DNA of 64,000 nucleotides from Xanthomonas sp. F10 (lineage in GTDB: Bacteria > Pseudomonadota > Gammaproteobacteria > Xanthomonadales > Xanthomonadaceae): assembly GCF_014206815.1 (NCBI RefSeq), contig NZ_JACHNP010000001.1:896456-960455 (forward strand). Reading direction: 5' to 3'. This document shows, piece by piece, positions 37,190 to 42,282 of this stretch. Every line of letters begins with the position of its first letter. The stretch's first letter is position 1. The notes below the pieces were generated by a model that worked only from the letters and a program-made list of their open reading frames with translations, had not been told where the DNA came from and did no database searches. The position numbers and the translations under genes are program-made.

Positions 37190-38044
37190 ATGCCTGTTCC
37201 ACGTTTTCTCGCGCCGCCGTCGCTGGCGGTGTCGGCGTCCGTCGCCGCCCGCCATGGCCGCCGGCCGCCGTTGCGCCGCCGCGGCGATGTGCTGTTGCGC
37301 GGGGCGCTGCTGCTGGCCGCCACTGCCGGCAGCGCCGGCGTGGCCTGCGCCGACGACGCACCGGCGTTCGACCGGCCTGGCATCGGCTTCGCCTCGAGCA
37401 CCCTGCAGCGCGGCCAGGTGGCCTGGGAGCAGGCGTTCTTCGATGGCAGCTACGACCGCGACGGCGACGTGCGCAGCACCGAGTACGTCGCCAACAGCCG
37501 GCTGCGGATCGGCCTGAGTGCGCGCACCGAACTGCAGTTGGCGATCGACAGCCAGGTGTGGCAACGCGTGCGCGGCGGCGGCCAGGACCGGCGCGGGCAC
37601 AGCGGCGGCGACGCCAGCATCGGCCTGAAGCAGGCGCTGCCGAGCACCCGCGACGGCTTTACCTGGGCGCTGCTCGGCAGCGCCAGCCTGCCGGTCGGCC
37701 GCGCGCCGTACGGCGATGCCGGCCACCGCTACGACCTGGGCCTGAGTGCCGGGTGGGACCTGCCGCAAGGACGTAGCGTGGCCCTCTATGGCAATGTCAG
37801 CGACAGCGAGGACGGCTCCGGCTGGAGCGTCTCGCCGAGCTACACCTTCTATGCCGGCGACACCCTGAGCGCCTACGTCGAGGCCGGCATCGGCGGCGGC
37901 GAGGACGACATGCGCGCGCTCGGCAGCGGCGTCACCTGGCTGTTCGCCAAGCGTGTGCAACTGGACGTGTCGGTGTTGCGCGGTCTCTCCTCGCAGACCC
38001 CGGACTGGCAGGGCGGCCTCGGCATTTCGGTGTTGTTGCGCTGA
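37190..38044 (+). CDS. Outer-membrane beta-barrel-like protein (MetA-pathway/transporter type)
   Basis: A 284-residue exported protein. After an unusually long Arg-rich N-terminus (MPVPRFLAPPSLAVSASVAA) a hydrophobic signal segment (GALLLAATAGSAGVACADD) precedes the mature region. The rest has alternating strands, such as TELQLAIDSQVWQRV and FTWALLGSASLPVG, ending LGISVLLR, consistent with a beta-barrel. It resembles the MetA-pathway-of-phenol-degradation family. An AAGGAG site supports the ATG at 37190. The substrate is unknown. It converges on metH. Confidence 0.75.
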   Translation: MPVPRFLAPPSLAVSASVAARHGRRPPLRRRGDVLLRGALLLAATAGSAGVACADDAPAFDRPGIGFASSTLQRGQVAWEQAFFDGSYDRDGDVRSTEYVANSRLRIGLSARTELQLAIDSQVWQRVRGGGQDRRGHSGGDASIGLKQALPSTRDGFTWALLGSASLPVGRAPYGDAGHRYDLGLSAGWDLPQGRSVALYGNVSDSEDGSGWSVSPSYTFYAGDTLSAYVEAGIGGGEDDMRALGSGVTWLFAKRVQLDVSVLRGLSSQTPDWQGGLGISVLLR

Positions 38045-38141
38045 GCGCGCCGTGCGCGTTGCGCCTTTTCGCAGCGGTCTTGGGCGCGCGACGCGCAGAG
38101 GCTGCACGCGGGATCAAGCCGCACGACGCCTGGTCATGTGC

Positions 38142-38240
38142 GTCTCGATCCGCGCACCGGTGCGCGTGCGACAAGCCGGCGCTTCCATCAGCGCCAGCGC
38201 GTCATCGTTGTTTCGATCCACGCACGCGTGAGCGCGCGAC
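38142..38240. CRISPR. Relic type I-C-like CRISPR repeat-spacer-repeat
   Basis: Two 31-bp sequences at 38142-38172 and 38210-38240 are separated by 37 bp. The second begins GTTTCGATCCACGC and ends GCGCGAC; the first begins GTCTCGATCCGCGC and ends GTGCGAC. They match each other at about 25 of 31 positions. From memory, the second matches the Xanthomonas type I-C repeat at about 26 of 31. The frames across them give FDPRTRER- and VSIRAPVR-like peptides, familiar false proteins from I-C arrays. No cas gene is in the window. The unit lies between two convergent genes. Confidence 0.65.
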
Positions 38241-38249
38241 GGTGCCGGC

Positions 38250-41036
<2,787 letters not shown>

Positions 41037-41139: not shown

Positions 41140-42282
41140 TCAGGCGACCTGCGCCTGCGCCGCCAGCGGCACGCGCGGCGGCAAGCCCCGCACCGCCTCG
41201 GCGATGGCGCGGATGTGGGCGGGGGTGGTGCCGCAGCAGCCGCCGACCAGGTTCAGCAGCCCGGACTCGGCGAACTCGCGCAGCGTCGCCGCCATTTCCT
41301 CGGGCGTCTCGTCGTACTCGCCGAAGGCGTTGGGCAGGCCGGCGTTGGGGTGCGCGCTGACGTAGCCGTCGGCGATCCGCGCCAGGGTTTCCACGTGCGG
41401 GCGCAGGTCCTTGGCGCCGAGCGCGCAGTTCAGCCCCACCGACAGCGGCCGCCCATGCGCGACCGAGGCATAGAACGCTTCGGCGGTCTGCCCGGACAGG
41501 GTGCGGCCGGAGGCGTCGGTGATGGTCCCGGAGATCATCACCGGCAGGCGCCCGCCGCGCGCGTCGAACACCTCTTCGATCGCGTACAGCGCGGCCTTGG
41601 CGTTGAGCGTGTCGAAGATGGTCTCCACCATCAGCGTGTCGGCGCCGCCGTCGATCAGGCCGTCGATGGCCTCGCGGTAGGTGGCGCGCAGCTCGTCGAA
41701 GCTGGTGTTGCGGAAGCCGGGATCGTTGACGTCCGGGCTGATCGAGGCGGTACGGCTGGTCGGACCGAGCACGCCGATCACGAACCGCGGCTTGTCCGGC
41801 GTCAGTGCCTCGACCGCATCGCAACAGGCGCGGGCGACCTGTGCGCCGGCCTTGTTGAGTTCGTAGACCAGGTGTTCCAGGTGGTAGTCGGCCTGGCTGA
41901 TGGCGGTGGCATTGAAGGTATTGGTCTCGAGCAGGTCGGCGCCGGCGTCGAGGTAGGCCCGGTGGATCTCGGCGATCACCTCGGGGCGGGTCAGCAGCAA
42001 CAGGTCGTTGTTGCCCTTCAGGTCGTGGCCCAGCGGTGCGTGGTCGCAGCCGGGGCCATGCACATGCTCGGCCTGCGCGTCGTAGCCCTCGGCGAAGCGC
42101 TCGCCGCGGTAGTCGGCCTCCTGCAGCCCATGGCGCTGGATCATTGTGCCCATCGCCCCGTCGATGATCAGGATGCGCTCGGACAAGGCCTGCAGCAGTT
42201 TCTGCGTGCGCTCTGGGTTTAGCCAGGGCAGGCCCGGGACCCGGGACCCGGGACCCGGGACTCGGGGAGAAGCGTCGCTCAT
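41140..42282 (-). CDS. Methionine synthase, homocysteine-binding part
   Basis: A 380-residue homocysteine S-methyltransferase domain equal to the N-terminal quarter of E. coli MetH. The core starts [20 protein letters not shown]; zinc ligands are Cys in [10 protein letters not shown] and the Cys pair in [14 protein letters not shown]. It should supply the homocysteine site to the separate cobalamin protein encoded 103 bp downstream. The first 16 or so residues ([17 protein letters not shown]) are encoded by a GGGTCCC palindromic element and have no counterpart in MetH. Its ATG overlaps the ArsR-methyltransferase stop by 4 bp. Confidence 0.93.

Follow-up and report, generated by a model that had tools for sequence, protein, structure and literature searches.

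The stretch of DNA analysed here (the window, 64,000 nucleotides) carries, at positions 38142-38240, a unit composed of two 31-bp imperfect repeats (R1 and R2, identical at 25 of 31 positions by direct sequence comparison) and the 37-bp spacer enclosed by them (Table 1). A reading made from the letters alone (hereafter the sequence-only reading) had described such a unit between convergent genes, and its coordinates, repeat identity and setting were all confirmed: the left gene ends at 38044 on the plus strand, and metH ends at 38250 on the minus strand. The four neighbouring genes examined (acyltransferase/SGNH, PF13557, metH and S-methyltransferase) included no phage gene. Within metH (window positions 38868-38975), GGGACCCGGGAC-like repeats run in frame, and a similar peptide starts the ORF that ends at 42282. 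The region was compared across 20 genomes of the genus Xanthomonas (the window's own, G000, included), all of which matched it in part.

Table 1. Features at the junction of the beta-barrel gene and metH (positions in the window).
Feature	Position	Strand	Description
Left flanking gene	37190..38044	+	Beta-barrel type (PF13557 family); left neighbour of the G007 and G011 arrays as well
Left flank	38045..38141		From the beta-barrel stop to R1; no good match in the other junctions compared (best E 0.034)
R1	38142..38172	-	Degenerate 31-bp I-C repeat; probable leader-distal (trailer) terminal repeat; crRNA sense on the minus strand
Fossil spacer	38173..38209	-	37 bp; PAM-proximal base at its start on the minus strand
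R2	38210..38240	-	31-bp I-C repeat; 27/31 to the G011 repeat (4 changes)
Nine bases from R2 to metH	38241..38249		Counterpart in G007/G011: remaining array, probable leader and epimerase gene
metH	38250..41036	-	Right flank; B12-dependent methionine synthase with pterin and B12 domains

The repeats and their likeness to type I-C arrays

Aligned with the type I-C repeats of the genus, both repeats match those of intact arrays, as the sequence-only reading had stated for R2: against the array consensus of one relative (G011), R2 has 4 mismatches (27/31) and R1 has 8 (23/31), the latter reaching 24/31 against the G010 consensus. The hairpin of R2 (a 7-bp stem with a 4-nt loop) is retained in the register seen in intact repeats, and its positions 17 and 24 are both altered with the pairing in the stem preserved; the fold of R1 takes a different register. 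The differences from the G011 repeat that are common to R1 and R2 (read from the sequences) fall at positions 6, 15 and 24, the one at position 15 being also present in the G010 repeat. Given these shared differences and the paired change in R2, the ancestral array may have had a repeat variant of its own. A search for the R2 variant in 297 genomes of the family (at <=1 mismatch) recovered only the window and one copy in a G010 array, and no living array built of the variant; in the window's own genome (4.78 Mb in 6 contigs) there was no further site at <=3 mismatches to a pattern derived from R1 and R2. The spacer (a single interval, as there are two repeats) has a length of 37 nt, within the 32-38 nt range of the 308 unique spacers collected from the genus.

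The peptides that had been taken for familiar false proteins of I-C arrays were recovered as well: VSIRAPVR is encoded in the ORF 37953-38231, the FDPRTRER-type peptide corresponds to a frame of R2, and a true array (G010) encodes the comparable FNPRTREGAT and SIHAPARVR. The R1/R2 pair was absent from the list of a generic repeat finder, an Rfam search of the region returned nothing useful, and a search of 37950-38350 for a sigma-70-like promoter found none.

The strength of the repeat match was gauged against simulated and real sequence. In approximately 10 Mb of Markov-1 simulated DNA (one strand) we recorded no site at <=7 mismatches, one at 8 (best 23/31) and no pair in which both members had <=8 mismatches with a 32-39 nt gap. 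Scored by the closest of three consensuses on both strands, the window itself held three sites at <=10 mismatches, namely R1 (7), R2 (4) and one of 9 mismatches at position 953, and in the array-free controls (64,470 bases from 17 hand-chosen loci) none of the three consensuses had a site at <=10 mismatches.

Arrays and cas genes in the genus

The junction between the beta-barrel gene and metH was inspected in 19 relatives. Intact long arrays occupy it in 2 of the 20 genomes, G011 with 44 repeats (a count that leaves out one additional site with 9 mismatches) and G007 with 58, and in both the array is followed by an epimerase gene (PF01370 in G011) and then by metH. The junctions of the other 17 relatives had no repeat at <=10 mismatches, the test being weaker for G013 (split over two contigs) and for G001 and G012 (beta-barrel gene not found). 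The epimerase gene was not found at the junctions of G000, G004, G005, G014 and G018, nor in the stretches available from G001 and G012 (G013 fell outside this test); it is present in G006, labelled as the same species as the window genome, whose junction has no detectable repeat. Comparison of this junction among relatives, which the sequence-only reading had seen as informative, reveals intact arrays in two of them, and the unit has both a match to a CRISPR repeat family and relatives with an array at its very site. The G011 array (L034 382-3235) is in itself a large, fresh-looking orphan, with 44 nearly perfect repeats of I-C type in a one-contig genome that has no Cas8c, Cas1 or Cas7c match.

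In both intact arrays the degenerate repeats are located at the end opposite metH, and the sequences that follow the last repeat on the metH side are 81.5% identical over 200 bp between G011 and G007. Part of this sequence recurs on the corresponding side of arrays in G010 (75.7% over 74 bp) and G005 (75% over 76 bp). Judged from these sequence comparisons, the metH side probably carries the leader, so that the unit in the window would be the leader-distal, oldest end of an array. No such leader piece was detected next to the arrays of the G007 cas locus, G012 and G019, which counts against this reconstruction, and leader queries had no match next to R2 in the window, where no leader relic is left.

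The sequence-only reading had also claimed an absence of cas genes, and the searches bear it out for what they covered. Profiles for Cas8c, Cas1 and Cas7c (cas3, cas5c, cas2 and cas4 being outside their scope) had no match in the window's own genome; Cas8c was positive in 5 of the 20 genomes (G005, G007, G010, G012 and G019), Cas1 in 7 of the 20, and Cas7c in only one (G010) of the seven genomes searched. The DNA of the 8.1-kb G010 region that holds its cas genes likewise had no match in G000.

A second decaying I-C array was found in the same genome (G000:C1:352436-352661; L151 537-762), in the intergenic region between gph and dinB. It has approximately 4 units (7, 8, 11 and 14 mismatches), of which the two weakest were identified by position and by the alignment with G008 only, and it aligns with its G008 counterpart without gaps at 82% over 280 bp, spacers included. 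The relic shared by these two genomes shows that arrays here were inherited and are decaying in place. At least one unit occupies this site in 7 of the 20 genomes (G000, G006, G008, G009, G010, G011 and G013; a single one, with 9 mismatches, in G009), and 13 of the 20 have no unit at <=9 mismatches. The relic units of three of them lie at L083 6299-6621 (G006), L154 647-967 (G011) and L129 2770-3092 (G013). In G010, two further small I-C remnants (L091 8384-8546 and L084 6884-6978) exist in addition to the long cas-linked array of that genome, and the former holds a homologue of the spacer in the window.

Source of the spacer

None of the spacers in the intact G007 and G011 arrays resembles that of the window. 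The closest relation was found in a three-repeat relic of G010, situated between a HAD-hydrolase gene (gph by inspection) and a Y-family polymerase gene (dinB; by Pfam): its 35-nt spacer agrees with that of the window at 26 of 35 positions, both being aligned at the PAM end and having the same starting base. The next best of the 308 unique spacers reached 18 (12 loci scanned, one of them without spacers), and only 2 of 47,278 spacer pairs attained 22 identities. Both spacers can be read as codons, the translations being NDDALALMEAPA for the window and NDDELALIEAL for G010.

After the G010 relic spacer had revealed the reading frame, a phage gene was found by means of a degenerate pattern, which recovered from IMG/VR two contigs encoding a 62-aa protein. 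This protein is a member of phrog_4113 (E 3e-23), with a weak match to the Arc-like repressor family, and relatives of it are present in 22 phage records (Pseudomonas 11, Burkholderia 8), phages that we take to be mostly temperate. On one of the contigs (L093) each spacer agrees at 27 positions (out of 37 for the window and 35 for G010) directly after TTC, and in ungapped identity the two take the top places among the 309 spacers tested there. Over 44 phage homologues, the window spacer averages 21.6/37 identities at one register, compared with <=12.9 in the ten other registers printed and with a maximum of 16.7 in 2000 shuffles. The three bases that precede the protospacer in these homologues are TTC (20), CTC (14), CTG (7) or another triplet (3); in front of the two best phage matches (28/37) stands CTG, not TTC. 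TTC is the tested PAM of the Xanthomonas I-C arrays of X. oryzae PXO99A (PMC8406640) and X. albilineans (PMC10810201).

A near-perfect phage protospacer was not found. With the spacer alone, blastn against phages gave weak matches only (best E 0.8 among the matches listed), blastn of the region against plasmids did the same (best E 0.2 among the matches listed), and a stricter degenerate pattern with TTC retrieved nothing from IMG/VR. The local scores of the phage genes tried (22-35) are barely above the background of the own genome (25-33 for 20-kb stretches, and 39 when the stretch with guaB is counted), so that it is the fixed register, the PAM and the G010 spacer, not the local score, that carry the argument for a phage.

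The best gapped match of all is to a host gene, guaB (IMP dehydrogenase, IMPDH by Pfam). The guaB of five relatives (G002, G003, G005, G015 and G017) agrees with the spacer at 27/37 positions ungapped and at 30/33 columns with one 2-nt gap, with BLAST E near 9e-5 per genome, and its local score of 50 (G005 locus) surpasses both the 31 of the next of the 309 spacers and the 22-35 of the phage genes tried. A spacer derived from it would make this a self-targeting array, aimed at the chromosome of its own host or of a relative, which could favour the loss of the system. Against this origin, the PAM position is occupied by ACC instead of TTC, the spacer is mismatched at three of its first eight bases (bases 1 and 2 among them), and the alignment requires a gap. 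The guaB of the own genome is also a weaker match (26/37 ungapped, local score 39) than that of other species, and the G010 relic spacer has no guaB match (local score 19-20) but matches the phage gene at 27/35 (local score 39). We therefore regard guaB as an improbable source, with a chance that is small but worth stating, and consider that the spacer was likely taken from the phrog_4113 gene of a temperate phage; this preference stems from its fixed-register relation to the G010 spacer and from the match of that spacer to the phage gene. The sequence-only reading had suggested that the spacer be compared with both phages and plasmids: among phages phrog_4113 is the most likely candidate, contested by the host guaB, and the plasmid matches of the region were weak.

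If the phage origin is accepted, two lineages would have targeted one phage gene at the same PAM, a hint that they faced a phage enemy in common. The spacer common to the window and G010 could instead be one spacer by descent or copying (through array duplication or transfer between loci), as is suggested by 26/35 identities in a fixed register where the next of 308 spacers has only 18. We hold this to be rather less probable than two acquisitions at the same PAM: the two loci differ (beta-barrel/metH and gph/dinB), several of the differences fall (by inspection) at third codon positions, as they do between homologous phage genes, and the spacers have unequal lengths (37 and 35), with the last bases of the window spacer fitting some phage homologues.

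A very probable remnant of a lost array

We reason that the unit is very probably the leader-distal (oldest) end of an ancestral type I-C array once situated between the beta-barrel gene and metH. This interpretation draws on the arrays present at the same site in G007 and G011, the repeat match beyond that of simulation and controls, the normal spacer length, the probable leader on the metH side, the homology of the spacer to one in the G010 relic, the lack of a match to Cas8c, Cas1, Cas7c or the G010 cas region and the second decaying array in the genome; it is independent of the source of the spacer. In the course of events that we envisage, the array of the ancestor would have incorporated a fragment of foreign DNA, the most likely donor being the temperate-phage phrog_4113 gene beside a TTC PAM, and would have conferred immunity through it. 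The cas genes would subsequently have been lost (or may never have been at this site), a deletion, suggested by the layout of the intact relatives, would have removed the remaining array, the leader and the epimerase gene, stopping 9 bp short of metH, and the two repeats and one spacer left behind would have decayed afterwards. The claim of the sequence-only reading that a type I-C-like relic marks a former array site is thus strongly supported by the same-site arrays in relatives and by the repeat match.

Several observations fit less well. The spacer in the window is unlike any in the G007 and G011 arrays and the left flank of the unit cannot be aligned with theirs, so the case for common descent with those particular arrays is built on position and repeat type. 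Both the lack of any leader relic and the state of G006, which has the epimerase gene and a junction free of detectable repeats, weigh on the same side. The paired change at positions 17/24 of R2 would be rare under plain decay; a variant repeat would explain it, and none was found. The source of the spacer, too, is disputed, the gapped guaB score being 50 as opposed to 22-35 for phage.

A remnant of an array has to be weighed against other accounts of the unit. That GC-rich intergenic DNA happens by chance to look like a CRISPR repeat might be argued from the GC-rich region and from the generic repeat finder, which missed the pair; the probability of this is practically nil, and we reject it, as neither simulation nor array-free controls yielded such a pair, relatives carry arrays at the same site, and the spacer is homologous to one in another relic. 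The unit might still be in use, as a mini-array of two repeats serving a Cas complex supplied in trans (from a plasmid or from the cas genes of another strain), for which the normal spacer length and the stem and loop of R2, kept as in intact repeats with the change at 17 matched at 24, would speak. We judge this very unlikely, considering that the genome has no match to Cas8c, Cas1 or Cas7c, that no leader and no sigma-70-like promoter (37950-38350) were found, that R1 folds differently with 8/31 differences from the G011 repeat, and that the best phage match is only 28/37. Correspondingly, the suggestion of the sequence-only reading that a solo unit is still recognised by Cas proteins found no support, with the three Cas families undetected, the leader missing and R1 degraded.

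Equally slim are the prospects that the unit has been kept as a small RNA, either a crRNA or a decoy for I-C complexes arriving on mobile elements, its spacer aimed at a conserved temperate-phage gene; the idea comes from the hairpin of R2, kept by a paired change while R1 decayed. Even less credible is an origin from a phage, as a solitary repeat or RNA anti-CRISPR (Racr) that remained in the chromosome, in place of a host array. RNA anti-CRISPRs and solitary repeats (PMC10651486) share with the unit the occurrence of few repeat copies without cas genes, and the unit differs from them in being chromosomal, without phage genes among the four flanking genes examined, in having two repeats and a spacer, and in that true arrays occupy the site in relatives. 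Of a present function for the remnant we see no sign, and we infer that it has none: the unit seems to be a trace of lost bacterial immunity and not a working system.

CRISPR arrays that are orphaned or vestigial and lack cas genes are a known kind of locus, and the unit belongs with them as an array-like element without detectable cas genes; it departs from them in that intact arrays occupying its site in relatives, the likely origin of its spacer and a likely deletion can all be named. It is therefore ordinary in kind (an orphan CRISPR remnant) and unusually well documented. In repeat type, repeat length and spacer length it resembles the I-C arrays of the genus, which in G005, G007 and G010 adjoin genes for Cas8c (Csd1) and Cas1, and it is unlike the published Xanthomonas I-C arrays (PMC8406640 and PMC10810201) in having two degenerate repeats only, no leader and no Cas8c, Cas1 or Cas7c match; the likeness was judged on the genus genomes. 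Among the papers listed by literature searches, no title or abstract dealt with this relic or with array sites at beta-barrel/metH and gph/dinB.

When cas genes are missing, an array remnant is difficult to establish as such. In this case the location, the repeat type, the spacer in common with another relic and the state of the relatives agree, and hence the loss of an adaptive immune system becomes readable as an event at named sites. With two array sites (beta-barrel/metH and gph/dinB) that are intact, orphan, decaying or empty among 20 genomes, the rate of array loss and decay would become measurable. The cas-linked array of G007 (L085 4986-5889) has a 904 bp interruption between two perfect repeats, and at the gph/dinB site of G006 a dispersed GC-rich element of approximately 35 bp, which occurs elsewhere in at least 12 of the 20 genomes among the matches listed, lies between two repeats.
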